DNA of 46,740 bases from Chloroflexota bacterium (GTDB lineage: Bacteria; Chloroflexota; Dormibacteria; CF-121), in the NCBI GenBank assembly GCA_005889345.1, contig VBFR01000190.1:1-46740 (forward strand). The letters run 5' to 3'. Both the position numbers and the translations under genes were made by a program. How positions within the stretch are numbered: the first letter of the stretch is position 1; every line of letters begins with the position of its first letter. Positions 1 to 17,546 of the stretch are shown in pieces. The notes beneath the pieces were generated by a model. It made no database searches, was not told the origin of the DNA, and was given only the letters and a program-made list of their open reading frames with translations.

Positions 1-1
1 G

Positions 2-1435: not shown

Positions 1436-1446
1436 GCGGAAATCAA

Positions 1447-1890
1447 ATGGTGAAGCACACGAGCGGACCACTCGGATCGGCCAACCAGGAGATCAGAGCT
1501 GCGATCGATGCGTTCGTCGAAGGGCGGCGCGCGAGCCGGCGCCTGCCCTCGCTCCTCAAACGAACGGACGCCATGCTGGCGGAGCTCGAGACGCTCAACC
1601 TGCTGCAGGTAAGACGCGCCCCCAAATCCTGGCAGTCCGAGCTGAGCGCGCTGGTTATCGACCTGCCGTTCGAATATGAGCCGCGCATCGCGCAACACCC
1701 GTCGCCCACAGCCGCCATCGACGTCGTTTTTGAGATCCAGCACGGTCTCTTCCGCTTGATGACCGGCGCGGAGTTCGAGGACGAGCTGCTCGAGGTGGCG
1801 AGTGACGATGGCGTCAGGAGCACGGAAGCGGCGTCGAATCTTACGGAGCTCGCTGGGCGCTTGAGCGCCTGGACTTCACAAAGGAGGTGA
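1447..1890 (+). CDS. hypothetical protein, 147 aa
   Basis: I do not recognise the family. It starts 11 nt after the preceding stop, with a weak AGGCGGA purine run upstream. The protein is mostly charged and probably helical, with no signal peptide, membrane segment or cysteines. It begins MVKHTSGPLG and has a stretch rich in Glu and Leu in the middle (LLKRTDAMLAELETLNLL). The stop codon lies inside the strong ribosome binding site AAGGAGGTGA of the next, very small gene, so the two are translationally linked. An upstream in-frame ATG at 1387 lies inside the preceding gene and is less likely. Confidence 0.6.
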   Translation: MVKHTSGPLGSANQEIRAAIDAFVEGRRASRRLPSLLKRTDAMLAELETLNLLQVRRAPKSWQSELSALVIDLPFEYEPRIAQHPSPTAAIDVVFEIQHGLFRLMTGAEFEDELLEVASDDGVRSTEAASNLTELAGRLSAWTSQRR

Positions 1891-1894
1891 CGTC

Positions 1895-2035
1895 ATGCCA
1901 GAGAAGTTGACGGTGGACGAATTCCTTGCGCTCTTCAGCCGCGCGCCAGGGGTCGACCGCTGGGTGAGCTCGGCCGACTCGGAGGAGTACCTCACGCTGA
2001 TCACGTATCTCGTTGGACGTCAATACCGTCTGTAG
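1895..2035 (+). CDS. small protein (46 aa), member A of a two-copy family in this window
   Basis: A 46-codon gene with a near-perfect Shine-Dalgarno AAGGAGGTGA 4 nt before ATG. The product starts MPEKLTVDEFLALF and ends LTLITYLVGRQYRL. It shares the pattern EKLTxxEFLALF ... ADSxExLTLxTYLVxR with another small gene at 10471-10620 on the other strand. Two independent copies in the same frame with conservative changes (D/Q, I/V, G/A) show that this is a real coding gene. There are no cysteines and no membrane segment; two short helices are plausible. Function is unknown. It sits between a hypothetical gene and an SPW membrane-protein gene. Confidence 0.8.
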   Translation: MPEKLTVDEFLALFSRAPGVDRWVSSADSEEYLTLITYLVGRQYRL

Positions 2036-2095
2036 CACATGGCTGAGTCGAAGTTTCACGTCGTTAGCGACAACAACACCAGGAGGTTGATTGCG

Positions 2096-2458
2096 ATGTC
2101 TGGAGAAATGCGTTGGCAGGACTGGATTAACGCGCTGTTGGGAGTGGTCCTCTTCATCACGCCGTTCGTCTTTGGGGACACCTCGCAGACGGCGGCAGCC
2201 TGGACGGCGTACGTCGGCGGCGTTTTGCTCTTCGTCTTCGGCGCCGGGTCGCTGCTGTTTCGGTGGAACCCGACCATCGAATACCTTCCGTTGATCGAGG
2301 GCGTCCTCTTGTTCCTGGCTCCATGGGTGCTTGGATTTAGCGGGATTACCGCGATGGCTTGGAGCGCTTGGGTCATTGGCGTTCTGGCATTCGTCAACGC
2401 GGGTTCGGTTCTGATCATGGGGGGTAACTTGACCGGCCGGTCGGCCGCCGCGCACTAG
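2096..2458 (+). CDS. SPW repeat membrane protein
   Basis: This 120-residue protein starts MSGEMRWQDWINALLGVVLF. It has four hydrophobic segments arranged as two repeats, each with a Trp-containing SPW-type signature (PFVFG..., APWVLGFSG). SPW proteins are small bacterial membrane proteins of unknown function, often near stress or redox genes. The start at 2096 is chosen because AGGAGG lies 9 nt upstream; an in-frame ATG at 2039 would add 19 unrelated residues. A GC-rich hairpin follows the gene. Confidence 0.85.
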   Translation: MSGEMRWQDWINALLGVVLFITPFVFGDTSQTAAAWTAYVGGVLLFVFGAGSLLFRWNPTIEYLPLIEGVLLFLAPWVLGFSGITAMAWSAWVIGVLAFVNAGSVLIMGGNLTGRSAAAH

Positions 2459-2475
2459 CCCTCCCTTCCCACATT

Positions 2476-2504
2476 TGCAGGCCCCTGTTGCCCGGGGGCC
2501 TGCA
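2476..2504 (+). terminator. GC-rich hairpin after the SPW gene
   Basis: TGCAGGCCCC pairs perfectly with GGGGCCTGCA around an 8-9 nt loop. There is no T tract, so factor-independent termination is uncertain. Its position between the SPW stop and the next ribosome binding site fits a terminator or transcript-end stabiliser. Confidence 0.5.
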
Positions 2505-2549
2505 CCCAATTCGATCACGACGAAATCTGACATGCTCAAAGGAGCGCCA

Positions 2550-3041
2550 ATGAAGATCCTGTACACGGCGGAAGCGGTAGTCGAAGGGGGGCGACGCGGG
2601 CATGGCCGAAGCACTGACGGCCGCCTCCAGGTCGACTTATCGGTTCCCAAAGAGATGGACGGCGACGGCGGGCCCGGCACCAATCCGGAACAACTCTTCG
2701 CGCTTGGGTATGCGGCCTGCTTTCAGTCGGCCATGCTGGGCGTCGCGCGGAGTCGGAAGCTCGATGCATCCGAGTCGACCATCACGTCTCGGGTGGGTAT
2801 CGGCCCCACGGGACGCGGCGGCCTGGAATTATCCGTGGCCCTCGACCTCCACGCGCCGCATCTGTCGCGGGTCGACGCTGAGGAGCTGATGCTTCGTGCG
2901 CACGAACGCTGCCCCTATTCGAGGGCGACCCGGGGAAACATCGATGTCGCGCTGACGGTTGACGGCGCGGCGCTCGAGGCCCGCTGGTTGAAAACACCAG
3001 AGGCAAGGCCAGGCCTTCCCGAGGCTCACGCCGGATCGTGA
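2550..3041 (+). CDS. OsmC/Ohr family peroxiredoxin-like protein
   Basis: The 163-residue product matches the Ohr/OsmC fold. It has MKILYTAEAVVEGGRRGHGRS at the start, the central motif NPEQLFALGYAACFQSAM with the first catalytic Cys, and AHERCPYSRATRGNIDV with the second. These two cysteines form the peroxidatic/resolving pair that reduces organic hydroperoxides in the cytoplasm. It is about 20 residues longer than typical Ohr because of a C-terminal extension after WLKTPE. The start is chosen at ATG 2550 behind AAAGGAGC. The neighbouring copper and redox genes fit a role in oxidative stress. Confidence 0.9.
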   Translation: MKILYTAEAVVEGGRRGHGRSTDGRLQVDLSVPKEMDGDGGPGTNPEQLFALGYAACFQSAMLGVARSRKLDASESTITSRVGIGPTGRGGLELSVALDLHAPHLSRVDAEELMLRAHERCPYSRATRGNIDVALTVDGAALEARWLKTPEARPGLPEAHAGS

Positions 3042-3135
3042 AGCGAGGGCTACGCGGCACCGCTCATCCTTCCAATCTGATCCTGCGGCGCCCAGATCAA
3101 CGAATATTCGCCGGGCGACCGCAAGAGGTCCGTAT

Positions 3136-5211
3136 ATGGATATGAGCGGCGAGATGGCGCACATGGGCCACGCGGGAATGTCTATGGAGGGAATGGTCCG
3201 CGACATGCGAAACCGTTTCCTGGTGGCCGCGATTTTTTCTATCCCCATCGTGCTCTGGTCGAGCATCGGTCGAACTGTCTTCCATTTCACCGTCCCCGCA
3301 CCTTTCAGCCTCCGCGATGATCTCTTTCAGCTGCTGCTGAGCCTGCCCGTTGTCTTCTACTCGGGGCGCGTCTTCTTCGAGGGCGCGGTTGGGGCGCTCC
3401 GCGCCCACACCCTCGACATGATGGTTCTGGTCTCGGTGGCCATCGGCTCGGGCTGGATCTATTCACTTGTCATAAGCCTGACGGGTGGGGGAGACGTTTT
3501 CTACGAAGCGTCGTCGCTCCTGGCGACGTTTGTGCTTCTGGGTCACTGGTTCGAGATGCGGGCGCGCGGGAGCGCCAACACCGCCATTCGCGCGCTGCTA
3601 TCGCTGGCCCCCCCAATGGCGCTCGTCATCCGTAGCGGCGAGCCGGTGGAAATTCCCACGGCAGAGGTCATGGTTGGCGACCTGTTGCTCATTCGGCCCG
3701 GGGGCAGGATCCCGGTCGATGCGACGGTCGAGGAAGGGGAAAGCGAGGTCGACGAGTCTGTCGTAACCGGGGAGAGCCTCCCTGTGTCCAAAGGGCCAGG
3801 CTCGGAGCTGATCGGTGGTTCGATCAACAAGAACGGGACGCTGCGGGCGCGGGCCACCCGGGTCGGGAGCGACACCGTGCTCGCCCAGATCGTCAATCTG
3901 GTGCAGGAGGCACAGAACTCGAAAGCTCCGTCGCAGGAACTCGCCGACCGGGCCGCCTTCTGGCTCGTCCTCGTCGCGCTCGTCGGCGGCACGGGCACGT
4001 TCGCTGTCTGGTTGCTGGTGAGCCGATCGGTGTCGGTCGCGATTCTCTATGCGATCAGCGTGGTTGTCATCACCTGTCCGGATGCCCTGGGCCTGGCAAC
4101 TCCGACCGCGATCATGGTCGGGACCGGGCTGGGCGCGAAGCGCGGCATCCTGTTCAAAAATGCCCTCGCCTTGGAGGCTGCCGCGGGTGTCCAGATGGCG
4201 GTCACGGATAAGACCGGCACGCTCACGAAGGGCGAGCCCGAGGTCACCCAGCTTGTCGTTGAGGGCCTTGGGGAAGCCGAGGTCTTGGCGCTGGCGGCCG
4301 CCGTGGAGCGCGAGTCGGAACATCCGCTCGCACAGGCGGTCGTCAAGTACGCGGACGTGCGCGGCGTGCGCCGGACGATGGCGGAGGACTTTGAGAACGT
4401 GCCGGGTCAAGGCGCCGTCGCCCGAGTTGATGGGAGGCGGGTGGCAGTGGGCAACACTCGGCTGATGGCCCGCGAAAAGATCTCCCTTGGCGCCCTCGAG
4501 ACGCGCCGGGCGGAGATCGCGGCAGAGGGTCGTACCATCGTCTGCGTGGCGGTCGATGGCCGTTCAGTTGCGCTGATCGCCATCGCCGACGCGCCACGAC
4601 CAACATCGGCTGCCGCGATTGCCACCCTGCGCGAGATGGGAGTAGAGGTCGTCATGTTGACCGGCGACAACGAGGCGACGGCCCGTCGCATTGCTCGCGA
4701 GCTCGGGATCGAGTCGGTGATCGCCGACGTGTTGCCAGCCGACAAAGCCAGCAAGGTCAAGGAGCTGCAGCAGAGCGGAAAGAAGGTGGCGATGGTCGGT
4801 GACGGCGTGAACGATGCGCCGGCGCTGGCCCAGGCCGACCTCGGGGTCGCGATCGGGGCCGGAACGGACGTCGCCATCGAGGCGGCTGGCGTCGTCCTGA
4901 TGCGCTCAGACGTGCTCGATGTCGCGACCGCCTTGACCATCGGACGCGGGACGTTGCGCAAGGAGCGGCAGAACCTCGCCTGGGCCGTCGGCTACAACAC
5001 GATCGCCATACCGCTCGCCGCCGGGATATTCGAGCCGCTCGGCATCGTCTTGCGGCCCGAGATTGCCGCCATCTCCATGTCGGGGTCGAGCCTCCTTGTG
5101 GCCGTCAACGCGTTGCTCCTCAGGCGGCTGCGCCTTCCGAACGCCGGGCTGCAGCGCTCGGTGGGAACAGGGTCAGCGTCCGGCAAACTGCGGGCCCAGA
5201 AGGCTGGCTAA
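3136..5211 (+). CDS. P1B-type heavy-metal ATPase with CPD transmembrane motif
   Basis: The 691 residues carry all hallmarks of a metal-translocating P-type ATPase: TGES actuator loop, phosphorylation site DKTGT, HP motif (ESEHPLAQ), TGDN and the hinge GDGVNDAP. The N-terminus is short and rich in Met and His (MDMSGEMAHMGHAGMSMEGM) instead of a CxxC metal-binding domain, as in Cu/Ag exporters of the CopB group. The key transmembrane metal motif, at residues 314-316, reads CPD rather than CPC (Cu+/Ag+, Zn/Cd) or CPH (CopB). Substrate is therefore uncertain; copper or silver export is the best guess from the Met/His-rich tail and cupredoxin neighbour. ATG is preceded by AAGAGG. Confidence 0.9.
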   Translation: MDMSGEMAHMGHAGMSMEGMVRDMRNRFLVAAIFSIPIVLWSSIGRTVFHFTVPAPFSLRDDLFQLLLSLPVVFYSGRVFFEGAVGALRAHTLDMMVLVSVAIGSGWIYSLVISLTGGGDVFYEASSLLATFVLLGHWFEMRARGSANTAIRALLSLAPPMALVIRSGEPVEIPTAEVMVGDLLLIRPGGRIPVDATVEEGESEVDESVVTGESLPVSKGPGSELIGGSINKNGTLRARATRVGSDTVLAQIVNLVQEAQNSKAPSQELADRAAFWLVLVALVGGTGTFAVWLLVSRSVSVAILYAISVVVITCPDALGLATPTAIMVGTGLGAKRGILFKNALALEAAAGVQMAVTDKTGTLTKGEPEVTQLVVEGLGEAEVLALAAAVERESEHPLAQAVVKYADVRGVRRTMAEDFENVPGQGAVARVDGRRVAVGNTRLMAREKISLGALETRRAEIAAEGRTIVCVAVDGRSVALIAIADAPRPTSAAAIATLREMGVEVVMLTGDNEATARRIARELGIESVIADVLPADKASKVKELQQSGKKVAMVGDGVNDAPALAQADLGVAIGAGTDVAIEAAGVVLMRSDVLDVATALTIGRGTLRKERQNLAWAVGYNTIAIPLAAGIFEPLGIVLRPEIAAISMSGSSLLVAVNALLLRRLRLPNAGLQRSVGTGSASGKLRAQKAG

Positions 5212-5349
5212 GAGACTCAGTCAGGACTGCATCGCTCCGCAGAGTAGTTGGGGACCTGCAGCTTTCTCACGCTCGTCTTGCGCGGGTAACCCAACCTGAT
5301 GAAGCGGCCACCGGACCGGCAACATTCTCCGACGACCGCGGAGGTTCAC

Positions 5350-6084
5350 ATGGTTTCGAGCGGAATAGTTCCCGTCGTGATCACGACCTTTCTCGCCTCG
5401 GCGGTGGAGGCCGTTGAGATGGTCGCAATCGTCGTCGGGGTCGGTGCCACCCGAGGATGGCGATCGACGATCTTCGGCGCCTTCTCAGGGTTTGCCACAC
5501 TGGCCGTCGTCGTCCTGATCCTGGGGGCAGCGCTCAGTCGGATCCCGATCGGTCCGCTGCGCCTGGCCATAGGCTTCCTGCTGCTGGTGTTTGGCTTGCA
5601 GTGGTTTCGCAAGGGCATTGTGCGGGTCGCAGCCCGGGGCTTCGCCGGAATGGGGGCGGCCGACCCGAACGACTCCGCGGAACAGTGGTCGGGGCCGGGT
5701 GTGGACTGGACCGCCTGGTTCCTGGCCTGGAAAGGGGTGGTGCTCGAGGGACTGGAGATCGCGATCATTGTCGTGTCGTTCGGAGCAGCCGCCAACAACT
5801 ACGGGGCCGCGGTCCTGGGCGGCGCATCAGCGCTCGTCATCTTCCTCGCCGTCGGCTTCATCCTCCAGAGTCCACTTCGCTTGATTCCGCGCAGCTTCCT
5901 GCAGCTCGTCGTCGGTACCCTGCTGACGGCCTTCGGGACCTTCTGGTCTGTGGAGGGCCTGGGCGTCGATTGGCCTGCGAGTGACGCAGCGATCCTCGGG
6001 CTTCTCGTCGTCTATGCGGTCACGGCGATGCTTTACATCGCGCGGCAGCGCCATCAGAGAACCACACTTCGGGCAGTGGCATGA
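5350..6084 (+). CDS. COG4280-type multi-spanning membrane protein
   Basis: This 244-residue protein has about six or seven transmembrane helices. Two similar helices carry conserved acidic residues: FLASAVEAVEMVAIVVGVG near the N-terminus and GVVLEGLEIAIIVVSFG in the second half. The internal duplication with E..E motifs resembles the UPF0016/GDT1-like cation transporters and COG4280 proteins. A role in divalent-cation transport is inference only. The start at 5350 follows GGAGG by 5 nt. The stop overlaps the next gene by 4 nt (ATGA), so the two are coupled. Confidence 0.7.
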   Translation: MVSSGIVPVVITTFLASAVEAVEMVAIVVGVGATRGWRSTIFGAFSGFATLAVVVLILGAALSRIPIGPLRLAIGFLLLVFGLQWFRKGIVRVAARGFAGMGAADPNDSAEQWSGPGVDWTAWFLAWKGVVLEGLEIAIIVVSFGAAANNYGAAVLGGASALVIFLAVGFILQSPLRLIPRSFLQLVVGTLLTAFGTFWSVEGLGVDWPASDAAILGLLVVYAVTAMLYIARQRHQRTTLRAVA

Positions 6085-6302
6085 ACGGGCGCATCTGGTC
6101 GTGGATCATCGCTATCCCGCGTTTTCTGTACAACTTCATCGTCGGTGATGACTGGACCGTGGCCGTGGCGGTCCTCGCCGGGCTGATCGTGACCGCGATC
6201 CTGAATGCAAACCACATCGTGGCGTGGTGGCTGATGCCGATCATCGCCATCGTCGCGACCGGTGTCAGCATCGAACGGCATTACGTGCAGAGCCCCCGGT
6301 AA
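6081..6302 (+). CDS. small membrane protein, 73 aa
   Basis: This gene overlaps the preceding stop by ATGA. The product has two hydrophobic segments (DWTVAVAVLAGLIVTAIL and HIVAWWLMPIIAIVATGVSI) separated by a short NANH loop. No family is recognised. It may be an accessory subunit of the membrane protein encoded just upstream, judged only from the overlap. Confidence 0.65.
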   Translation: MNGRIWSWIIAIPRFLYNFIVGDDWTVAVAVLAGLIVTAILNANHIVAWWLMPIIAIVATGVSIERHYVQSPR

Positions 6303-6377
6303 AGTTCGTCTAATCGAAGGATCAGAACGAGAGGGAAACGATGTTTCGCAGGCAGCGAAGGCTGAGGAGGTAGAGCA

Positions 6378-6992
6378 ATGGCTGGTCTGATCTCTCGCGG
6401 GTTTCTTGGACGGCGCCGCCCGGCGGAGGTCGAGAACCGCCTCCCGCCGGGGCAGTATCTCGTGACGGATTTTCCGGTTCTCTCGGCGGGGCCTACGCCC
6501 CACACACCGCTGGACAAGTGGTCGTTCACCATCGACGGCCTGGTGCGCAAACCGGTGACCTGGAGCTGGGGCGACTTTCAGAAGCTCCCCACGCAGAGCT
6601 ACACCGTCGACATCAGCTGCGTGACCAAGTGGACCAAGCTCGACACCAAGTGGCTCGGCGTCAGCGTCGATACACTGCTTGAGGCGGTCGAGGTTGAGCC
6701 TGCCGGCAGGTACGTGATGGCGTACAGCGACGGCGGGTACACGACCAATGTGCCGCTCGAGGAAATGACGAAGGGGCAGGCGTTCGTGGCCTATCAGTTC
6801 GGCGACAAGGCGCTCGAGCCTGTGCATGGAGGGCCGGCGCGGCTGGTCGTGCCTCATCTCTATTTCTGGAAGAGCGCCAAGTGGATCCGTGGCCTTCGCT
6901 TCATGGAGGAAGACGAGCCCGGGTTCTGGGAACAACTCGGCTATCACATCCATGGCGATCCCTGGAAAGAGGAGCGCTACAGCGGCGACTGA
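6378..6992 (+). CDS. sulfite oxidase-like molybdopterin-dependent oxidoreductase
   Basis: The 204-residue protein matches the oxidoreductase molybdopterin-binding domain found in YedY/MsrP and sulfite oxidases. The cysteine in VDISCVTKWTKLD is the expected molybdenum ligand, and GGYTTNVPLEEM and HGGPARLVVPHLYFWKSAKWI are family landmarks. It has no Tat signal, so it is probably cytoplasmic. GAGGAGG precedes the ATG. The stop overlaps the next start by one nucleotide (TGATG). By family knowledge this single-domain enzyme commonly sits beside a ferredoxin-reductase-like flavoprotein and a DUF6510 gene, as here. Substrate is unknown. The moeA gene at about 26 kb could supply the cofactor. Confidence 0.9.
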   Translation: MAGLISRGFLGRRRPAEVENRLPPGQYLVTDFPVLSAGPTPHTPLDKWSFTIDGLVRKPVTWSWGDFQKLPTQSYTVDISCVTKWTKLDTKWLGVSVDTLLEAVEVEPAGRYVMAYSDGGYTTNVPLEEMTKGQAFVAYQFGDKALEPVHGGPARLVVPHLYFWKSAKWIRGLRFMEEDEPGFWEQLGYHIHGDPWKEERYSGD

Positions 6993-7735
6993 TGGCAGAG
7001 CCTGCTCTCGACTGGCAAGCGGGGACGGTCACTGCGATCCGGCCCGAAACCCGGCAGACGAAGAACTTCACGCTCGCGCTGCCTAAATGGATGGCCCACC
7101 GGCCGGGCATGCATTATGACGTTCGGCTGACGGCCCCGGACGGGTACCAGACGGAGCGCAGCTATTCCGTCGCGTCCGCGCCGGAGCGGGTGGGGACGAT
7201 CGATCTCACCGTCGAACGGATCGAGGACGGCGAGGTGTCGCCCTACCTCCACGACGTGGTCGCCACCGGCGATCAGGTCGAGGTCCGCGGGCCGATCGGC
7301 GGGTACTTCGTCTGGGAGGTGACGATGGGCGGTCCTCTCCTGTTGATCGGCGGCGGATCGGGGGTCGTGCCCCTGATGGCCATGCTGCGACATCGTGCTG
7401 CTCAGCACGCGACCATACCGGCGCGCATTCTCTACAGCAGCCGGACCGCCGACGATGTCATCTACCGCAGCGAGCTCGACGCGCTGGCCGCCAGCGACCG
7501 CGCTTTCGAGCCGTTCTTCACTTTCACCCGGCAGGCGCCGCCTGGCTGGGCCGGGTATCAACGGCGAATCGATGCCACGATGTTGAGTGAGGTGATCAGG
7601 CCGTTTGGAGCGCACGCTCGCGTCTACGTGTGTGGACCGACACTGCTGGTGGAAGCGGTCGCCAACGCCCTGGTGCAGATGGAGCTACCCATCGACCAGA
7701 TTCGCACGGAACGTTTTGGCCCGACCGGAGTCTGA
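6992..7735 (+). CDS. FAD/NAD(P)-binding ferredoxin reductase-like oxidoreductase
   Basis: The 247-residue protein has the FNR fold. Residues 1-95 form the FAD domain with RSYSVASAP (the RxYS flavin motif) and GDQVEVRGPIGGYF. The NAD(P) domain has LLLIGGGSGVVPLMAMLRH, and the end carries YVCGPTLLVEAVANAL and RTERFG. There is no iron-sulfur domain. It begins one base inside the stop of the molybdoenzyme gene, so the two form a transcription and translation unit, and it probably delivers electrons to or from that enzyme. Confidence 0.9.
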   Translation: MAEPALDWQAGTVTAIRPETRQTKNFTLALPKWMAHRPGMHYDVRLTAPDGYQTERSYSVASAPERVGTIDLTVERIEDGEVSPYLHDVVATGDQVEVRGPIGGYFVWEVTMGGPLLLIGGGSGVVPLMAMLRHRAAQHATIPARILYSSRTADDVIYRSELDALAASDRAFEPFFTFTRQAPPGWAGYQRRIDATMLSEVIRPFGAHARVYVCGPTLLVEAVANALVQMELPIDQIRTERFGPTGV

Positions 7736-7747
7736 GGAGGCGCAGTA

Positions 7748-8032
7748 ATGAACATGGATGACGCCGATATGAATACGGCCCTGATGGTCGACGGGAACGC
7801 GGTGGCAGGTCAACTCATGGACGTCTTTGGCCGCGACATGACGATCGCGGTGGCCCGCTGCGCCGGCTGCACCCGCGAGGCCGAGATGGGCGCGCTGATG
7901 GCGTTCACACGCGGTCCGGGAGTGGTGCTCCGCTGCCCGGCCTGCGAGGCCGCCATCGCGCGCATCGTCGAGACGCCGACGGCCATCTACGTCGAGGCGC
8001 GCGGCGCGTCGTTCCTACGCTTGCCTCGCTAA
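7748..8032 (+). CDS. DUF6510 family protein, zinc-ribbon-like
   Basis: The 94-residue protein matches DUF6510: DGNAVAGQLMDVFGRDMTIAVARCAGC, then LRCPACEAAIARIVETPTAIYVEARG. Two CxxC pairs (CAGC and CPAC) about 30 residues apart suggest a zinc ribbon. It follows a strong GAGGAGG site 12 nt after the flavoprotein stop and closes the molybdoenzyme operon. Function is unknown; its constant association with this oxidoreductase pair points to an accessory or scaffold role. Confidence 0.85.
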   Translation: MNMDDADMNTALMVDGNAVAGQLMDVFGRDMTIAVARCAGCTREAEMGALMAFTRGPGVVLRCPACEAAIARIVETPTAIYVEARGASFLRLPR

Positions 8033-8045
8033 CCGCAATCAGAGA

Positions 8046-8074
8046 GGCCCCGGTGGGAGCACCCCACCAGGGCC
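8046..8074 (+). terminator. hairpin terminator of the molybdoenzyme operon
   Basis: GGCCCCGGTGGG pairs with CCCACCAGGGCC (one C-A mismatch) around a 5-nt loop, 13 nt after the DUF6510 stop. No clear T tract follows, so the exact mechanism is uncertain. Confidence 0.6.
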
Positions 8075-8079
8075 CGTAT

Positions 8080-8640
8080 CCATGCTCCGTCAGCCCTTGT
8101 TGTTATCTCCACTTGTGATGGCAAAGTTCGCGGTCATGCTTCCGACCCTGGACCTGGTAGGCACCGGGCTCGACTTTCGGGCCTGGCTGCCATCAATGTC
8201 GCCCGGCGTCACGGCAAGTGCCGAAACGGGCACGACAGGTGAACCGTTTGCGATTGGCCGGGGTTTAGCGTCACCCGCGCAAACCCAACCAGCCGCTGTG
8301 ATGGCACCAGCACGTCGCTGGTCGGCTGGCGGACGTACTGGCGAACTTCGACCTGGCGGAATCTTCGCAATCGCTAGCGAGGCTCACTTCTGAACAGATC
8401 ACCAATCAAGGGTGATGACCAGGTCAACCGTGCTGTCGAAGGAAGTCCACGCGGCACAGTCGTAATGAGGTCGGCTATGGAGATGGAGCGCTGATGAAAC
8501 TCGGCGGCATTTTCGGGGCTGAGTTTGCCGCCGGTTGCGAGACCGAGCGGGGTAAACCTCAGGGACCGATCATCGGGATTAGTCAGCTCACCAAACTTGC
8601 GAGGTTCCAACGACTCTCCGGGACGGTCTCCTCAAACTAA
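8080..8640. other. stretch without a convincing gene
   Basis: Open frames on both strands here (for example 8082-8393 on + and 8374-8610 on -) have no ribosome binding site, no recognisable domain and biased composition. I see no gene. The stretch may be decayed island DNA between the DUF6510 operon and the attachment-site region that begins at about 8646. Confidence 0.5.
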
Positions 8641-8645
8641 TCGGG

Positions 8646-8666
8646 TTGCTGTCAGGGTTGCTGTCA
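8646..8666 (+). repeat. paired TTGCTGTCA direct repeats, left of the selC fragment
   Basis: TTGCTGTCA occurs at 8646-8654 and 8658-8666, a 12-nt period. The same pair with the same spacing occurs at 8934-8954, on the other side of the tRNA-derived repeat. Paired direct repeats flanking a core site are typical of arm-type binding sites of tyrosine recombinases; this assignment is inference. Confidence 0.6.
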
Positions 8667-8748
8667 AACGCTGCTTGTGCGACGACAAGAATATCGCCTG
8701 GCACGCATATTAAGTGTGGAGGGTGTTGTCGAGTTCGAATTCAGAGAA

Positions 8749-8816
8749 TGGCGGGGGCGCGACGGGAACGATCCGTCCGTCGACATCGCCTAGGATGCCG
8801 ACCAGCGGTTTTGAAG
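8749..8816 (-). repeat. att-like direct repeat: 3' half of selC (tRNA-Sec)
   Basis: These 68 bp match 17547-17614 at 67 positions (8791 T versus 17589 A). Read on the - strand, they run from the anticodon loop CTTCAAA through the long variable arm and T arm to the encoded GCCA end of tRNA-Sec. The 5' half of the tRNA is absent, and upstream sequence diverges exactly at the anticodon loop. This is the usual signature of an integrative element that used the anticodon-loop-to-3'-end segment of a tRNA gene as its attachment site. Confidence 0.85.
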
Positions 8817-8840
8817 TTCGCGGGCGCATCGTCCGCCGAC

Positions 8841-8928
8841 GTTCGCTACGGTTCGCCAGCGTTCATCTCGAAATTGACCGCCGTGGTCAATAGTTCGCAG
8901 TGGTTCGCTAGCGTTCGCCCTAGTTCGT
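8841..8928 (+). repeat. 10-bp-phased GTTCGC arrays
   Basis: GTTCGC-like hexamers start at 8841, 8851 and 8861 (last one GTTCAT) and again at 8893, 8903, 8913 and 8923 (last one GTTCGT), each exactly 10 bp apart. Another GTTCGC begins at 8816 at the edge of the selC fragment. Spacing of one helical turn puts all copies on the same DNA face, as expected for cooperative binding by an integrase, excisionase or regulator. The protein is unknown. Confidence 0.7.
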
Positions 8929-8933
8929 CGGCG

Positions 8934-8954
8934 TTGCTGTCACCGTTGCTGTCA
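8934..8954 (+). repeat. paired TTGCTGTCA direct repeats, right of the selC fragment
   Basis: TTGCTGTCA at 8934-8942 and 8946-8954 repeats the pair at 8646-8666 with identical 12-nt spacing and orientation. Together they bracket the 68-bp tRNA-derived core and the GTTCGC arrays. Confidence 0.6.
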
Positions 8955-9074
8955 AAACGGACCCCAGGGCCAGCTGCTGTGCGGCGCGTCGAACAAGTGA
9001 TGAAGAGCGCCGGCACGGCCGGCGCATCTCATGCGGGGGAAGTCAGACCGCCGCGTTGAGCAGTCCAAGTGAAA

Positions 9075-9485
9075 CTAGGCAACCTGCGAGGTGATCGCGT
9101 TTCCTTTTGCGTCGAGAACGTACCAGACGTTGTTGTAGCCCTGGCCGGCCACATCGCCGGCGGTGCCGTCCTTGACGAAGTAATAGAGTGGGTGGCCGTT
9201 GAAGGTGACCATCGTTGTGCCGTCTGCCCGGGCCGAGATGCCGAGTTTGGTCCGGTCGATCCCGTCACCGCCGAGTGGCGTTCCCTCCGTCGTCAGAGGA
9301 GGCCAGTATTCGGCGCACCCCTCGTAGCACGTGGAGTTTGCGTCCTTGTCAGATGTGAACAGATAGAGCGTACGCCCCTCGGCGCCGACGAGGATGTCGC
9401 CAAGGCTCGTTTGCCGAAGGGAGACGATCGCTTGACCCGGATCTGCCGCGGTGACCTTGCTACCGCCTTCGTTGACTGTCTTCAT
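9075..9485 (-). CDS. COG4315-type repeat protein (Lipoprotein_15 family)
   Basis: This 136-residue protein contains two copies of the family repeat: LGDILVGAEGRTLYLFTSD...CYEGCAEYWPPL and LGISARADGTTMVTFNGHPLYYFVKD..GDVAGQGYNNVWYVLD. The paired Cys in TCYEGCAEYWPP is conserved in the family. Members are usually secreted or lipoproteins, but this one begins MKTVNEGGSKVTAAD with no signal peptide, although GGAGGTG lies 9-14 nt upstream and supports the start. It is therefore probably cytoplasmic or a shortened derivative. It is the first cargo gene inside the selC island. Confidence 0.85.
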   Translation of the reverse strand: MKTVNEGGSKVTAADPGQAIVSLRQTSLGDILVGAEGRTLYLFTSDKDANSTCYEGCAEYWPPLTTEGTPLGGDGIDRTKLGISARADGTTMVTFNGHPLYYFVKDGTAGDVAGQGYNNVWYVLDAKGNAITSQVA

Positions 9486-9556
9486 TCCTGAACACCTCCA
9501 ATGGATTTTGTCTGCGACGCGCGACCGTTCGCACTCGGGCCCGGTTCCTTCGAAAG

Positions 9557-10620
<1,064 letters not shown>

Positions 10621-10777
10621 GTTTGCGATGTTATGCAGGTGGCGCCCGCCGCGAAACAGTCGAAGGGCCTGAGATTCCCTAAGACAACAGGCGTAGCGAC
10701 GCTAAGACATACATCGGATGACTTCACGGAGACGGTCAGGCCTGACCAGCGAGCTGGCGACGTCGACCGCTCGACGC

Positions 10778-10894
10778 TTAGAGGCCCAGCGCCTTGTGTT
10801 GGTTGACACGCCGATCGCGAACGGCATCGATCGCGTCAGCGAGTTGATGAACGATCGCGACGACCGCGATGTCGGACTCAACCTCCAGCTGCAT
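10778..10894 (-). pseudogene. possible gene remnant, 38 codons from the first ATG
   Basis: On the - strand a frame is open from 10993 to a TAA at 10778-10780. Its only standard start is ATG 10894, giving MQLEVESDIAVVAIVHQLADA and a 38-residue peptide. Upstream codons also read like protein (FHTDPHEPKEEARRRL), but the frame begins at a stop with no start. A DosR-like palindrome lies immediately upstream, so this may be a decayed member of that regulon. Coding is not certain; the rest of 10621-11032 holds nothing recognisable. Confidence 0.3.
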
Positions 10895-10994
10895 TCGAAT
10901 CGAGACCGATCTGGGTATCGCTTGTAGCCGTCGTCGAGCCTCCTCCTTGGGCTCGTGCGGGTCAGTGTGAAAGCGCCCAAAGTGGTGCGCGCCC

Positions 10995-11010
10995 TAAGGC
11001 TTTAGTCCTA
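10995..11010 (-). promoter_or_regulatory. DosR/DevR-like palindrome
   Basis: Read on the - strand, TAGGACTAAAGCCTTA is an imperfect palindrome close to the DosR consensus core GGGACTWWAGTCCC (GGACTAAAG matches). A better copy lies at 13949. The regulator gene that could bind it ends 23 bp away. Binding is inferred from similarity only. Confidence 0.4.
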
Positions 11011-11032
11011 CCGGCAACGATTTCGATCGACC

Positions 11033-11692
11033 TTATTGGCTTTTGAGTGATGCAAGTCCGGTGCGAATCGCATGTAATGCGGCCTGGGTCCGGCTGTGGA
11101 CGCCAAGTTTGGCAAAGACATTGTTCAGGTGGGCCTTGACGGTCTTTTCGGTGATCGACAAGCGCCGGGCGATCTCCTTGTTCGAAAGCCCGTCCGCGAC
11201 AGATTTCAAAATCTCGGTCTCTCGATCGGTTAGCCGTTCGACATGATCTGGGAATCGCAACTCCTTGGCGAGACGGGTCGCCGCCTCTGGCGACAGCTGC
11301 ACCTTTCCGTCCACCGCTGAGCGGATTGCCCGCAGCAGTTCCGCGCCGTTGGTGTCCTTTAGCAAGTAGCCGGTGGCTCCGGCCTGGATCGCCTGAGACA
11401 CGCTGTGATCTTGAAGGACGCTGGTCAGCGCAATGATCTCGACCTTCGGCATCTCAGCCTTGATGCGGGCGGTTGCCTCGATGCCGTCCATCTGCGGCAT
11501 GAGAATGTCCATGAGGATCACGTCGGGCTTCAGTTCGCGTGCCAGGGCAATCGCCTGGTTACCGTTGGAGGCCTCGCCAATCACCACCAACCCCGGCTCG
11601 TCCGTCAGGTATCTCCGCAATCCTTCGCGCACGACCCAATGGTCGTCAACGACCAAAACCCTGATGGCGAGGCTCGGGGTGGCATCGTTCAT
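11033..11692 (-). CDS. NarL/FixJ family response regulator (DosR/LiaR-like)
   Basis: The 219-residue protein has a receiver domain (residues 10-125): acidic pair in VLVVDDHWVVREGL, phospho-acceptor Asp in DVILMDILMPQMDG, then ALTS and Lys in GYLLKD. A C-terminal LuxR-type helix-turn-helix follows (residues 150-215, LTDRETEILKSVADGLSNKEIARRLSITEKTVKAHLNNVFAKLGV). It is divergent from a GAF histidine kinase, with only 33 bp between start codons, so the pair is a two-component system. The short gap leaves little room for separate promoters. DosR-like palindromes nearby suggest a hypoxia or redox regulon. Confidence 0.93.
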   Translation of the reverse strand: MNDATPSLAIRVLVVDDHWVVREGLRRYLTDEPGLVVIGEASNGNQAIALARELKPDVILMDILMPQMDGIEATARIKAEMPKVEIIALTSVLQDHSVSQAIQAGATGYLLKDTNGAELLRAIRSAVDGKVQLSPEAATRLAKELRFPDHVERLTDRETEILKSVADGLSNKEIARRLSITEKTVKAHLNNVFAKLGVHSRTQAALHAIRTGLASLKSQ

Positions 11693-11725
11693 AGGAGACT
11701 ATGCTTAGGCTACAGGGGGGAAGCA

Positions 11726-12916
11726 GTGGCGGCTGTCATCAACGCATCGAGGAGCCGAGCACAGACTCGTACCTTGCTTGACCTTGCCGGGATCCTCGAG
11801 CGTGCGCTTGATGACTGCCTCGAATTGACTGGGTCAAACGTGGGATACGTCGACCTGCTGAATGCCGATGGCCACCGTGAGCTGGCGGCCGTCAAGGGCG
11901 CCGATGTGGACGGTGCCTTCGTGAAGTCGCTTAGCGGTTTGGCCGTGCATGCAAACCTTGCCAACGCCGTAATCCTCAAGCGGCAAATCAAGATCTCGAA
12001 TGACATTGCTGACGACCGCGACAGCGTCGGGGTTCCAATCGGCCATCCGCCGGTCAAGCGAGTCATGGGGGCCCCGCTTGTCGCGGGGGACGCTGTTCTG
12101 GGTATGGTGGTTGTCGCCAACAAACGCGGCGAATACACACCGAAGGATGCCGAGTTCCTTTCGATATTCGCAAATCAGTTGGCGGCGGCCATTGCGTACT
12201 CCCGCTTGTACGAGCAGCAGCTTCAGATAAACGCTGAGCTCGAGAGGCTCTCTACGGGGGCATCCGATCGCGCCGCCTCAGATGAGCGGCAACGGTTGGC
12301 GCGCGAGTTACACGATTCTGCCGCGCAATCTCTTTATGGCATCGCCCTTGCCACGCAAGCGGTCCGGCGCACCGTGGAAAGGGATCTCGGCATGGCGAGG
12401 TTAGCCGAGCCGCTCGACTATATTTTGCAGCTTGCCGAGGTCGCGCTAGCCGAGCTGCGAGCCCTGATCTTTGGCCTGCGGCCTGAGAGCCTGGCTGAAG
12501 AGGGCTTGATCGTAGGCCTGCAACGACTGACAGCGGCTGTTGCCGCCCGGCACAAACTGACGGTCGATCTCGTGGCAAACGCCGAGCCCGACCTTGACAT
12601 CCGAACCAAGGAGGCGCTCTATCGGATTGCCCAGGAAGCCATACAGAACGTTGTCAAGCACGCGTCGGCGCGGTCTGTCGAAGTGCAGTTGATAGCCGAC
12701 CGCCATGACGTCGAACTTCGGATCGCCGATGATGGCGTCGGCTTCGAGCCCGGAGCGGACTATCCGGGTCATATCGGGCTCAATAGCATGAAGGAGCGCG
12801 CCCACGCGCTGAACCTGGAACTGACTGTCGACAGCCACCCAGGAGCCGGGGTCCAGGTCAACGTGCGAACGCACGCTCTGCCTAGACATTCCGCGCGAGT
12901 CCTCCCGTGGAGCTGA
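11726..12916 (+). CDS. GAF-domain sensor histidine kinase (DevS/NarX type)
   Basis: A 396-residue product from GTG 11726, chosen because a G-rich run (GGGGGG) sits 5 nt upstream and earlier in-frame starts overlap the divergent regulator. Residues 15-175 form a GAF domain (LLDLAGILERALDDCLELTGSNVGYVDLL ... MGAPLVAGDAVLGMVVVANK ... FLSIFANQLAAAIAYSRLYEQQ). A HisKA_3 domain with the phosphorylated His in LARELHDSAAQSL follows, then an HATPase_c domain (EALYRIAQEAIQNVVKHA, ADDGVGFEPG, HIGLNSMKERA). There is no membrane segment, so it senses a cytoplasmic signal. DosS-like kinases bind heme in GAF, but heme ligation here cannot be shown by eye. Confidence 0.92.
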   Translation: MAAVINASRSRAQTRTLLDLAGILERALDDCLELTGSNVGYVDLLNADGHRELAAVKGADVDGAFVKSLSGLAVHANLANAVILKRQIKISNDIADDRDSVGVPIGHPPVKRVMGAPLVAGDAVLGMVVVANKRGEYTPKDAEFLSIFANQLAAAIAYSRLYEQQLQINAELERLSTGASDRAASDERQRLARELHDSAAQSLYGIALATQAVRRTVERDLGMARLAEPLDYILQLAEVALAELRALIFGLRPESLAEEGLIVGLQRLTAAVAARHKLTVDLVANAEPDLDIRTKEALYRIAQEAIQNVVKHASARSVEVQLIADRHDVELRIADDGVGFEPGADYPGHIGLNSMKERAHALNLELTVDSHPGAGVQVNVRTHALPRHSARVLPWS

Positions 12917-12949
12917 GACCCCTCGGAACTGCGATCTAGAGATCAACAG

Positions 12950-13933
12950 ATGCTTGAAACCGCGTTCACGCGCCTCGTCGGGTGCTCGGTGCCTATTCAG
13001 CTCGCTGGCATGGGGAGCATCAACGGTCCTGAGCTGACGGCCGCCGTGTCAGAGGCGGGCGCTTTCGGACAGATTACGTTTGCCGGGACGCTACCGAAGG
13101 ATGCCGAGGCCCGGATGAATCGTATCGAGGAACTGACGTCCAAACCATTCGGGGTCAATCTCATCATGCCGTTCTTCGATCCGGCGATCTTGCGGATGGT
13201 GATACCTCGGGCACGCGTGGTCGATTTCTTCTGGGGTGAGCCTGATGTCCGCCTGATCGACCAAGTACACGCGGGCGGCGCGCTGGCCTCGTGGCAAGTC
13301 GGGTCGATTCGCGAAGCCATCAACGCCGAGAAAGCGGGGTGCGACTTCATCATCGCGCAGGGGATCGAGGCCGGTGGCCACATTCGCGGTCGGCTGAGCC
13401 TGCTCCCACTTCTCAGCGCCGTTCTCGACGCGGTATCGGTACCGGTTCTCGCAGCGGGAGGCATCGGCACGGCCCGGAGTGTGGCGGCCGTTCTGTTTGC
13501 GGGTGCAGCGGGCGCCCGCGTCGGAACCCGGTTCATCGCAGCCGAGGAGTCAAACGCCCACCCGGAGTATGTCCGGGCGCTGATTGCAGCACGAGCCGAG
13601 GACGCGGTGGAAACGACGCGATTCGAGGTGGATTGCCCGATGTGTCCGTCGCAGCACCGCGTGCTTCGCTCAGCATTGGAGGCGGCAGAAGCCCTACCCG
13701 ACCGGCCACTGGGCGAAATCGATATCTCCGGCGAGCGCTATCCGATCGCCCGCTTCCAGGGAACAGTTGTATCCAAGCAAGTCGAGGGAAGGATCGATGC
13801 CATGGCGTGCTACGCCGGCCAATCGGTCGGCGGCGTGCGTCGCGTGCAGTCGGCCGGCGAGATCGTGGCGGAGCTGGCAGGCGGCGCCGAGGCGCTGCTG
13901 GCGCGATTGGCTGTCGCCCAGGTCGCTCCGTGA
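12950..13933 (+). CDS. nitronate monooxygenase / 2-nitropropane dioxygenase-like flavoenzyme
   Basis: The 327-residue TIM-barrel protein matches the NMO family: PIQLAGMG near the start, VNLIMPFF, the active-site region AQGIEAGGHIRG with the conserved His, and FMN-phosphate motifs VPVLAAGGIGTARSVAAVLFAGAAGARVGTRF. It would be a cytoplasmic FMN enzyme oxidising nitronates or a related NAD(P)H-dependent oxidoreductase. It begins 33 nt after the kinase stop on the same strand. Nitronate detoxification fits a redox-stress island but the substrate is inference. Confidence 0.88.
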   Translation: MLETAFTRLVGCSVPIQLAGMGSINGPELTAAVSEAGAFGQITFAGTLPKDAEARMNRIEELTSKPFGVNLIMPFFDPAILRMVIPRARVVDFFWGEPDVRLIDQVHAGGALASWQVGSIREAINAEKAGCDFIIAQGIEAGGHIRGRLSLLPLLSAVLDAVSVPVLAAGGIGTARSVAAVLFAGAAGARVGTRFIAAEESNAHPEYVRALIAARAEDAVETTRFEVDCPMCPSQHRVLRSALEAAEALPDRPLGEIDISGERYPIARFQGTVVSKQVEGRIDAMACYAGQSVGGVRRVQSAGEIVAELAGGAEALLARLAVAQVAP

Positions 13934-13948
13934 TTTTCGGCTCGGCCT

Positions 13949-13968
13949 CCTAGGACTTAGGTCCTAGG
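13949..13968. promoter_or_regulatory. DosR-like palindrome upstream of the DUF4331 gene
   Basis: CCTAGGAC and GTCCTAGG are perfect inverted arms around TTAG. The centre GGACTTAGGTCC differs from the DosR core GGACTWWAGTCC at one position. It lies 16 bp after the monooxygenase stop and about 118 bp before the DUF4331 start. The likely binder is the NarL-type regulator at 11033-11692. A terminator is less likely because there is no T tract and the arms are short. Confidence 0.55.
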
Positions 13969-14085
13969 TTTTGTCAATCCCTTAGCGCACCAGGTTCCCA
14001 ATCTTCGGCCCCTGTTCGCGCGCCTGGATCGCGTCGATGCTGTAAGCGAACTGGCTCAATCGATCAGGACAAAGGAGGACGCATC

Positions 14086-15090
14086 ATGTCTAACCACTTC
14101 AGTGCCGCCAACCTCAAGCATCCCGGCGACGACGCACGTCTCGACCTCACGGATCTGTTTGTGTTCGCAGCGCCCGATAACCCCGACCGGACCGTGCTGA
14201 TCATGGACTCGAACCCCTTCCTCGAAGGTGACGGGTTCCACCCGGACGCGGTCTACGGGTTCAACATTGACAGCAACGGGGATTCGTTGGCCGATGTGGC
14301 GTTCAGCTTCACTTTCTCAAAGCTGACAGACGGCCGGCAAAGCGCAACTGCCTTCTACGCCACCGGCCGTGAGGCCCAGATGCGTGAGCCGGGCGGTGCC
14401 GTGCTCATCGAGGCGATGCCGGTGGCCTTCGACGCTATGGCCGCCCCCGTCCAGGCTGGCTCCTGCCGTCTGTTTATCGGCAAACGCAGCGACCCGTTCT
14501 TCGCGGACGCTGATGGCGTCGTTCAGTGGTTGGTCGGGGGCCAAGCAGGAAACTTCGAGTGGAAGGGGAACGACACCTTCGGCGGCGCGAACATTCTCTC
14601 TATCGCGCTCGAGGTACCCAACGACATGCTGGGCTCCGGTCCGCGAATCGGAGTCTGGGTGACGATCAGCTTGCGCCGTGACGGCAAGCTCGTGCAGATG
14701 GACCGGGAAGGGAACCCGTCGTTCAACCCCATCCTGAACCCGGAAAACATCAAGGACGAGTTCAACTCGACGGACCCAGTCGACGACGTGAAGAACCACG
14801 TGAAGCCGTTGTCCGAAACGCTCCTGCGGCATGGCTACTCCGGCGACGAGGCGAAGGCGACGGCTCTCACGCTGCTTCCCGACATTCTTCACTACGACCG
14901 GACCAAGCCGGCCCACTACCCCAACGGCCGGGTGGTGACCGACGATGTGTTCTCGGCTCGCATGATCATGATGGTTCACGGGCAGGCACGCCCCCAGGAT
15001 GTCAAACCCCACAAGGATCTACTGCCTGAGTTCCCGTTCCTAGGGATTCCGCATCCTGTCAAAGCTGGTGCGGTCACGGCGAAGGTGTGA
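14086..15090 (+). CDS. DUF4331 family protein
   Basis: This 334-residue protein matches DUF4331: MSNHFSAANLKHPGDDARLDLTDLFVF at the N-terminus, DPFFADADGVVQW in the middle, and repeated Asp-rich turns (NIDSNGDSLADVAFSF). There is no signal peptide, although many members are exported. AGGAGG lies upstream of the ATG. The family has no established function. The upstream DosR-like palindrome suggests induction by the island's two-component system. Confidence 0.88.
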   Translation: MSNHFSAANLKHPGDDARLDLTDLFVFAAPDNPDRTVLIMDSNPFLEGDGFHPDAVYGFNIDSNGDSLADVAFSFTFSKLTDGRQSATAFYATGREAQMREPGGAVLIEAMPVAFDAMAAPVQAGSCRLFIGKRSDPFFADADGVVQWLVGGQAGNFEWKGNDTFGGANILSIALEVPNDMLGSGPRIGVWVTISLRRDGKLVQMDREGNPSFNPILNPENIKDEFNSTDPVDDVKNHVKPLSETLLRHGYSGDEAKATALTLLPDILHYDRTKPAHYPNGRVVTDDVFSARMIMMVHGQARPQDVKPHKDLLPEFPFLGIPHPVKAGAVTAKV

Positions 15091-15188
15091 TCTGTTTGGG
15101 TGGATTTACACAGTATCCGTCAGCCGCTCGACCGCGTAAGAGAAGTTGGAAGAGCCAGATCTGGCCACCTCATCAAGGGAGATCAAGC

Positions 15189-15854
15189 ATGAACATCGTC
15201 CGCCGACCCCACGCTCGGCGCCGCAGGGTAGCGCTCGCCATCGCGGGCTTCAGCGCCGTGTTTTCCGCGTTGTTCGTCGGAGGCTTCGCATTCGCCTCCG
15301 GTTCACCGTCGAACACGCTGCCCGTCTCCTCAGCTCAGACCCCCGCCTGGACTAACGGCAAGACCGTGACCGTCCAGTACGCGCAGGACTATTTCTGCGA
15401 TCGGACGGTAACCGCGGTTCCCCTTGCGGCGAGCGGCTGCGAGGTCGGGGCTGCGGCCAACGTCGGCCCGGTCGCCAACCCGGATCGCTCCACCATTTAC
15501 GTCGTGATTCCGCTCTTTGCCAACCCGAATCCACCCACCATGTGCCCGACCGCAACCGGACCCACCCCGCCGCTCAACTGTCCCAACCACCCCCAGGACA
15601 TCTATGTGCCGCTGGCGGGCTTCGGTGACATTCCGCTACCGGCGCACAGCCACATCCTCGATGGTCCTGCCGGCGGGTGGTGGGATGTTAAGGGAGTGGT
15701 CGTCCTCGACCAGGCGACCTGGGCCGAGCTGGCGGCTGGCAAGAGCCTGGGGACCCTGCTGAACATCGAGGCCCGGCCCGACGCCGCCAGCCACATCCTG
15801 TTCGGCACGAACGTTCCGACGAATCTGTTCCTCTTCTTCAATACCGTTCGATGA
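15189..15854 (+). CDS. predicted secreted protein, 221 aa
   Basis: The product starts MNIVRRPHARRRRVALAIAG with an Arg-rich n-region and a hydrophobic h-region ending near FAFASGS, so it is likely exported. The mature part has four or more Cys (FCDRT, SGCEVG, MCPTA, NCPNH), consistent with disulfides outside the cell. No domain is recognised. AAGGGAGA precedes the ATG. The last 142 bp of the gene are part of a 213-bp segment that is repeated, inverted, inside the thioredoxin gene near 17.8 kb. The stop overlaps the next start by ATGA. Confidence 0.75.
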   Translation: MNIVRRPHARRRRVALAIAGFSAVFSALFVGGFAFASGSPSNTLPVSSAQTPAWTNGKTVTVQYAQDYFCDRTVTAVPLAASGCEVGAAANVGPVANPDRSTIYVVIPLFANPNPPTMCPTATGPTPPLNCPNHPQDIYVPLAGFGDIPLPAHSHILDGPAGGWWDVKGVVVLDQATWAELAAGKSLGTLLNIEARPDAASHILFGTNVPTNLFLFFNTVR

Positions 15855-15925
15855 TCACCCAGCAGATTGGGGCCAGCACCGGGCTGGCCCCCCGTCACAC
15901 CGTCCCGCTCCCCGTTACCATCGCC
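15713..15925 (+). repeat. 213-bp inverted duplication, source copy
   Basis: This segment covers the last 47 codons of the secreted-protein gene and the first 25 codons of the following membrane-protein gene. It is identical by eye to the reverse complement of 17702-17914. Because it lies in two intact, overlapping genes, this copy is the source; the other interrupts an unrelated gene. Confidence 0.9.
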
Positions 15926-16714
15926 ACGCCCGCCATCATCGCCATCGTCGGCGCCATGATTACGCTGGTCGGCTCGGCCCTCCCGTGGGTCACGATCTTT
16001 CGGGGCACGCGGACCCTGACCGGATGGAACGGGAGCCCTCGCTACCTTGCCGGGCTGGCCGTGGCATCCGTCGCGCTCACGCTGCTCTTTCTGTGGGCGG
16101 GCCGGCTCTCTGCCTTTCGACGTCTGGCCGTGCTGACCGGATCGACGGCCGCGGTAGGTAGCGCCTTCGCCAGCTGGCAGGTCGCCGCCCTCGACTCATC
16201 GCATTCGGTCAGCGCGCGGATTCTCACCCCGGTCCTAGGGCCTGGTCCATTCGTCATGGTGGCCGGCACGCTGCTTCTGTTGGCCGTCGTGGCAATTCCC
16301 ACGTCCGCCGCCAGGGTTCCGGCCCCCCTGTGGCCACGAGTCATCCTGGCCGGCGCCCTTTTCACCGCCGGGTGGATCCATCTCGCCCTCACGCCCGAAC
16401 ATCTGGGCGAGGCGACCATCCTCGGCCTCGGCTTCCTGGCCGCCGGGCTCGCCCAGCTCGCCCTTGCCTCACTGATCATGGCCAGGCCCTCGGATCTCAC
16501 CTATTACGCGGTGGTCGGGCTGAGCGCGGCCCTGGTCGTGCTCTATGCGATCGCGGTGCTCAAGGGCCTCCCCTTTGGCGGTAATCACGATCACGCGAGC
16601 GGCCTTAAATTCGGCTCCGGCGAGCCGGTTGATCTCGAGGGGGCGGTCAGTAAGCTCGCCGAATTGTTCAGTCTGGCTACGGCGTTCGTCCTCGTGGGCC
16701 GGCACCCGGACTAG
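15851..16714 (+). CDS. multi-spanning membrane protein, 287 aa
   Basis: The gene starts with a 4-nt overlap onto the secreted-protein stop. The protein has about eight hydrophobic segments, for example TPAIIAIVGAMITLVGSALPWV, VASVALTLLFLWAG, VMVAGTLLLLAVVAIP and YYAVVGLSAALVVLYAIAVL. It also carries His-containing positions WIHLALTPEHLGEAT and a GGNHDHASG loop near the end that could bind metal. No family name is certain. Its first 25 codons are copied in the inverted duplication. It likely works with the secreted protein encoded by the overlapping gene. Confidence 0.7.
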   Translation: MITQQIGASTGLAPRHTVPLPVTIATPAIIAIVGAMITLVGSALPWVTIFRGTRTLTGWNGSPRYLAGLAVASVALTLLFLWAGRLSAFRRLAVLTGSTAAVGSAFASWQVAALDSSHSVSARILTPVLGPGPFVMVAGTLLLLAVVAIPTSAARVPAPLWPRVILAGALFTAGWIHLALTPEHLGEATILGLGFLAAGLAQLALASLIMARPSDLTYYAVVGLSAALVVLYAIAVLKGLPFGGNHDHASGLKFGSGEPVDLEGAVSKLAELFSLATAFVLVGRHPD

Positions 16715-16784
16715 CGCAAGTCGGACCGATGGGCGTGTGACTGCGGACAGCCGTGCCGCTGGGGCCGGTTGGAAGGAGAACAAT

Positions 16785-17444: not shown

Positions 17445-17518
17445 ATAAGGGCGTCTTCGTCAGTGTCGGCGGCCGCCAAGCTGGAACCGTAATCTACGAG
17501 ACCTACCTCGTCGGATGA
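17130..17518 (+). pseudogene. DUF3237 gene with internal deletion and frameshift
   Basis: The N-terminal strand of DUF3237 (LTKVYRLEATLGQPLDIGDVPG) is in one frame. The C-terminal part (ADWQIGLPDGTTLGDIRY, LLYAQSRGVRHGSAEVLARL, DLAWLNKGVFVSVG, GTVIYETYLV) is in another. About 20 residues expected between the two are missing near 17205-17215, so a deletion of roughly 60-70 nt seems to have fused the halves out of frame. It is the last cargo gene before selC and appears non-functional, unless the C-terminal part from 17297 is used alone. Confidence 0.7.
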
Positions 17519-17546
17519 GTTGCGGCTGCGAGTTGAACACAAGAAC

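Follow-up and report, generated by a model that had tools for sequence, protein, structure and literature searches.

What is the stretch between positions 8646 and 8954, in which a displaced 3' half of the tRNA-Sec gene selC lies between two pairs of repeats? The first-pass annotation had suggested that both outer arms are derived from elements, as in an attP or in the junction between two tandem elements, and that the DNA to the left may be a second element stacked at the same site. Here we conclude, with a probability of about 0.86, that the stretch (junction J1) is an attP-like junction of two islands stacked at selC by site-specific integration. We call the left island E0 and the right one E1. 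The window, i.e. the whole stretch of DNA that was analysed, is an entire contig of 46,740 bp (C250) from a genome of 3.23 Mb, assembled in 306 contigs and 88% complete. Its relevant features are the following.

1-8645, no strand: island E0, right part only, with the left end past the contig edge (Pfam; absent beside selC in relatives; element-type arm at 8646)
8646-8666, plus strand: P-side arm doublet TTGCTGTCAGGGTTGCTGTCA, exact match, assigned as right end of E0
8749-8816, minus strand: core, displaced 3' half of selC, 68 bp, 67/68 identical to intact selC with one mismatch
8816-8865, plus strand: block A of the P' arm, GTTCG at 8816, then 10-bp-phased 8831 (GTCCG), 8841, 8851 and 8861 (GTTCA)
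8866-8892, plus strand: spacer between the blocks, possibly a bend; position shared by the 18 P' arms that were compared
8893-8932, plus strand: block B of the P' arm, GTTCG at 8893, 8903, 8913 and 8923; candidate RDF operators by analogy
8934-8954, plus strand: P'-side arm doublet TTGCTGTCACCGTTGCTGTCA, exact match, assigned as left end of E1
8957-17541, no strand: island E1 (Pfam; no integrase)
9075-9485, minus strand: first cargo gene of E1 (Lipoprotein_15), approx. 120 bp beyond the P' doublet
17547-17614, minus strand: regenerated core within intact selC (sequence comparison)
17547-17646, minus strand: intact selC (tRNA-Sec), the integration target (ARAGORN and Rfam RF01852)

The integration target and its flanks

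Comparison with relatives revealed variable DNA on the left side of selC and synteny on its right side. The far flank showed the order DUF1015-SerA-SerC-amidase-MoeA with an adjoining tRNA-Val in those relatives whose sequence extends there, and the genes of E0 (1-8 kb) and E1 (9-17.5 kb) were missing at the equivalent place, generic family matches aside. The locus is built as a tRNA island, in which the intact tRNA gene and its displaced 3' fragment form a direct repeat, with strain-specific DNA between them and a syntenic flank outside.

Pfam assigned to the visible part of E0 a PQQ/plastocyanin-type protein, a P-type ATPase, an OFeT_1 iron permease, an FAD/NAD oxidoreductase and a DUF6510 protein. 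E1 was found to encode a secreted-repeat lipoprotein, an alpha/beta hydrolase, a LuxR regulator, a GAF histidine kinase, a nitronate monooxygenase-like protein, a DUF4331 protein and MIase. Stacking accounts for how a group of genes with metal- and redox-related functions arrived next to selC in this lineage. The final gene of E1 (17064-17518) seems to carry a frameshift, a single protein-like reading being continued across two frames; its DUF3237-type likeness was noted by eye only.

Doublets and core of the junction

Each doublet consists of two 9-mers at a period of 12 nt (TTGCTGTCA-NNN-TTGCTGTCA), and the two at J1 are the sole exact ones in the window. They enclose a core that reproduces selC over its 3' half, from 17547 as far as the anticodon loop, so the paired repeats of identical period around a 68-bp core, as initially described, were borne out. 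Exact doublets have a chance expectation of approx. 2.5e-5 in a genome of 3.23 Mb. When up to three mismatches were allowed, five doublets were detected genome-wide, and the reversed pattern gave none. All five adjoin tRNA 3' fragments, four of them fragments of selC (two each on C250 and on a second contig, C281) and one a fragment of tRNA-Ser on C81, the identity of which was read from the sequence.

At J1 the arm sites stand as direct repeats on both flanks of the core, which is the arrangement of an attP-like tandem junction and is also seen at locus L262 of a related genome, described below. Of the two forms proposed at the outset, a tandem junction is supported, as in L262. A free circular attP is ruled out, since the contig runs on into the syntenic chromosome. 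Judged from sequence, E1 starts on its left with the right doublet and the array, and E0 is closed on its right by the left doublet.

The phased array in the P' arm

GTTCG occurs seven times between core and right doublet, at 8816, 8841, 8851, 8893, 8903, 8913 and 8923. The first description, seven repeats in two arrays phased at exactly 10 bp, held for the number of copies and for the spacing inside each block, but the copy at 8816 lies 15 nt before the phased part of block A (off by 5) and 32 nt separate the last repeat of block A from the first of block B, so that no common phase exists. Block B keeps its register on reaching the first arm site, where GTTGC stands at 8933. Four GTTCG copies in phase were unique to J1 within the window, and 40 simulated windows gave two at most. 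Genome-wide, three phased copies (up to one mismatch) were found at only three loci, namely J1, C281 and C164, all of which are att arms by sequence. Across 18 compared P' arms, some of them closely related and hence not 18 independent events, 36 GTYC pairs 10 bp apart were counted, as compared to a mean of 0.3 and a maximum of 3 in mono-nucleotide shuffles.

By analogy, we infer that the phased array would provide the sites of an excisionase (recombination directionality factor, RDF). In phage 186 the operators bound by the RDF Apl are direct repeats that follow each other at one helical turn (PMC7498355), RdfS binds 10 bp per monomer (PMC11963761), and in a tRNA-Ser island of the same genus (genome G003) an HTH_17 gene, which is of excisionase type, lies immediately upstream of the integrase. 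These three observations argue against the reading that the integrase itself or a host architectural protein binds the GTTCG blocks. That reading is quite possible, though on balance we doubt it: the register of block B with the arm sites (GTTCG passing into GTTGC) and the spacer that parts the two blocks would fit it, as would the islands of family f4 described below, which have the array and in which no HTH_17 gene was seen adjoining the integrase.

The same plan in related genomes

Related genomes share one plan, with the P doublet to the left of the core by approx. 60-80 bp and the phased array followed by the P' doublet right of it. The position of the P doublet relative to the core is common to J1, C281, L222, L228 and the f4 islands; the distance is 82 bp at J1, 75 bp in C281 and 62-78 bp elsewhere among relatives. 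From the core to the P' doublet the distance is approx. 115 bp in most members of the genus and 36-46 bp in shortened copies.

The complete selC islands of family f4, from the same class, divide the doublet-core-array-doublet plan between their two ends and carry an intact tyrosine integrase with the domains Phage_integrase and Phage_int_SAM_3. In L260, selC lies at 2006-2105, the P doublet at 2163, the integrase at 3406-4539, the P' doublet at 9129 and the core at 9252-9318. In L262, a core at 5509 armed on both sides adjoins a complete island with an integrase at 9485-10606, a P doublet at 11885 and selC at 11968-12063, the same arrangement as at J1. Either end of a complete f4 island bears a single doublet arm next to a selC core, and the proposal that both outer arms of J1 are element-derived is thereby supported. 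AbiEi/AbiEii-type defence genes were noted on these integrase-bearing islands (L260, 5252-6061; L262, 7135-7971). A further f4 selC island (L261, 8307-9512, contig C36 of genome G104) has an interrupted integrase with another, older core behind it, and thus represents a pair of decaying islands.

We also asked how doublets and integrases are associated more widely. Within the class, and among the matches listed in both sets, 14 of 87 doublets have a related integrase no more than 2 kb away, where 0.34 were expected. In public genomes, exact doublets were found at most 500 bp from an integrase gene in 36 of 158 cases among the matches listed, usually a few bases past the 3' end of the integrase gene; this set was selected by the doublet and shows association, not a rate. 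Doublets beside tyrosine recombinase genes, which had been proposed as a check, are therefore present in the lineage, both in L260 and L262 and in the class as a whole. Scans of the genome, the class and public genomes together with the integrase association rule out that doublet and array are generic intergenic motifs, an outcome that would have spoken against the original proposal. A published arm-site consensus or arm sequence matching the doublets was not found in the literature searched, which returned unrelated papers only.

These comparisons bear on the reading that E1 is a single island at selC and that the left doublet arose by chance or belongs to the native chromosome. Just one pair of island borders is indeed intact in the window, E0 having its left border off the contig. 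Nevertheless, the left doublet is exact and stands at the expected P distance with a negligible chance probability, two-armed junctions like J1 recur on C281, in L228 and in L262, and the E0 genes are absent at the equivalent place in relatives. We consider the single island very improbable. The arm at 8646 and the absence of the E0 genes from relatives support the suggestion that the left region is a second, stacked element, the left end of which lies off the contig.

The plan is also used at another tRNA gene. A tRNA-Ser junction in a same-genus genome shows the full P-core-P' order with a right arm 78% identical to that of J1, and in G003 a distance of 6.7 kb separates two tRNA-Ser cores, both of which are accompanied by array and doublet. 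Because it is found at tRNA-Ser too, the P' module is not tied to selC. At selC itself, at least two arm classes occur within the genus, TTGCTGTCA (with TTGCTTTCA) and ATGCCGTCA. Separately, a locus of family f3 (L222, contig C26 of genome G071, 6640-6945) has a selC core and arms near-identical to those of the window's genus, from interfamily transfer or a misbinned contig.

Further junctions and remnants

A search for another copy of the selC 3' half, also proposed beforehand, was successful within the same genome, although on other contigs. C281 carries a second full junction at 6076-6310 with a decayed right doublet, and C276 a third selC fragment, a 39-bp core followed by a class-II-like arm. 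Because of this second junction and this additional core, the stack of islands probably has more members than E0 and E1. No end overlaps joining C281, C276 and the window were found. An apparent selC copy at C219:2067 was rejected as a short chance match within a sigma-factor-like gene.

Three further observations were made in the assembly. A small HTH_3-type gene, possibly an island regulator, lies immediately right of the second junction on C281 (L007, 6387-6653). On C81 (L152, 626-780), a 3' fragment resembling tRNA-Ser and the TTGCCGTCA doublet next to it are a remnant of the tRNA-Ser version. C164 (L322/L329, approx. 12427-12520) holds a P' array and doublet whose core is lost, likewise a remnant of that version.

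Hybrid and truncated units in relatives bring in the reading that J1 is a decayed scar. In this reading islands would have inserted and left again, deletions running between arms and cores would have fused what remained, and E0 and E1 would never have moved as units bounded by these sites. A unit of 0.83 kb in genome G015 whose arms belong to two classes, a core-less arm in G003, an integrase stub in genome G014 and the lack of a P arm in E1 would be in line with it. The copy on C281 is decayed; J1, however, has two exact doublets, a single mismatch in the core and the full array, and we regard the scar as unlikely. A platform for gene cassettes, made up of units of 0.8-2 kb, is not supported; the fully bounded unit of G015 looks like a deletion hybrid, given its two arm classes.

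Rows of two or three selC cores occur in relatives, and both G003 and G015 have three on one contig each. In G003 (L212, contig C29, 180-270) a lone P' arm, block B and doublet with no core, lies between two selC cores and is a remnant of a further stacked island. In a member of the genus (L217, 9180-9300) a C-terminal integrase stub with the catalytic-tyrosine region was seen in a 2-kb selC unit, an integrase once present and then deleted.

Present state of E0 and E1

Between the last E1 frame, which ends at approx. 17518 (approx. 28 nt before selC), and selC no P doublet was detected. Nothing credible in the way of an integrase or its remnant was found in E1 and the visible part of E0, and relatives of the f4 integrase were not detected in the assembly at E 1e-20. 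The sole Phage_integrase match of the genome is Xer-like. Most members of the genus are integrase-poor, like the source genome; as the assembly is 88% complete, it may miss an integrase.

With no integrase inside E1 or visible E0 and none of f4 type in the genome, E1 was therefore not filed as an autonomous island. It is probably immobile by itself, and probably stranded, its P arm having been lost by deletion, because the selC-proximal arm is lost and no cognate integrase was found in the assembly. E0 may be mobilisable if its left end, past the contig edge, is intact. Compared with a cis-mobilizable element (CIME), which is flanked by attL and attR and lacks recombination genes, E1 has one complete arm only, one border of E0 is off the contig, and no integrase was found in the visible parts. 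Most likely, E0 and E1 are remnants of the cis-mobilizable type that need a helper integrase.

Proposed mechanism

In the reading of two stacked islands, the N-terminal arm-binding domain of an integrase would grip the TTGCTGTCA doublets of both arms, and its catalytic part would carry out strand exchange within the selC core, close to the anticodon loop. The GTTCG blocks, phased by one turn, may be bound cooperatively by a small excisionase (RDF), which would bend the P' arm, in analogy to known RDF operators. Stacking would follow once selC has been regenerated and a further element inserts there.

A broader reading is speculative and we hold it doubtful. The doublets would be swappable address labels that choose the helper integrase for each integrase-less island, the GTYCG module would move between tRNA targets, and selC and tRNA-Ser would be shared docking stations for recombinase-less gene units. 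The address-label classes would then be TTGCTGTCA, TTGCCGTCA, TTGCTTTCA and ATGCCGTCA, each repeated within the arm and usually matched at both island ends.

As a signature, NTGCNGTCA doublets combined with a one-turn GTYCG array find island ends even after loss of the integrase gene. The doublet lies beside integrases in several phyla, and an arm-site specificity code becomes directly testable.

Comparison with known systems

Tandem accretion of integrase-less islands is already known; new are the lineage, the arm architecture and the arm-site classes. J1 is a well-resolved junction of tandem tRNA islands, the arms of which are built with unusual regularity.

In Dehalococcoides, tandem islands at ssrA are bordered by a 20-bp direct repeat of the 3' end of the RNA gene and have a serine recombinase (DsiB), and 15 islands without an integration module were read as possible cis-mobilizable elements (PMC3146451). 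The selC islands resemble these in being stacked behind one RNA gene, with direct repeats of its 3' end and in part without integration genes (PMC3146451), and differ from them in target (selC), repeat length (68 bp) and arms of tyrosine-integrase type.

ICESt1-related CIMEs (Pavlovic 2004), as far as they are described in PMC3146451, are likewise integrase-less units that keep their att sites and stand in tandem with related elements. In contrast to that account, the helper element was not found in our source genome and mobilisation is here only putative.

Like a lambda-type attP, the P and P' arms of which serve arm-binding tyrosine integrases (PMC8138268), J1 has a core between direct-repeat arm sites, and an integrase of the tRNA-targeting kind is present in class-mates. 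Its 9-mer doublets at a 12-nt period and the two one-turn-phased GTYCG blocks in one arm set it apart. Like the RDF operators of phage 186 (Apl), the repeats of J1 are direct, spaced by 10-11 bp and located within an att arm (PMC7498355). At J1, in contrast, they number as many as eight or nine, divided between two blocks, and their binding protein is only putative.
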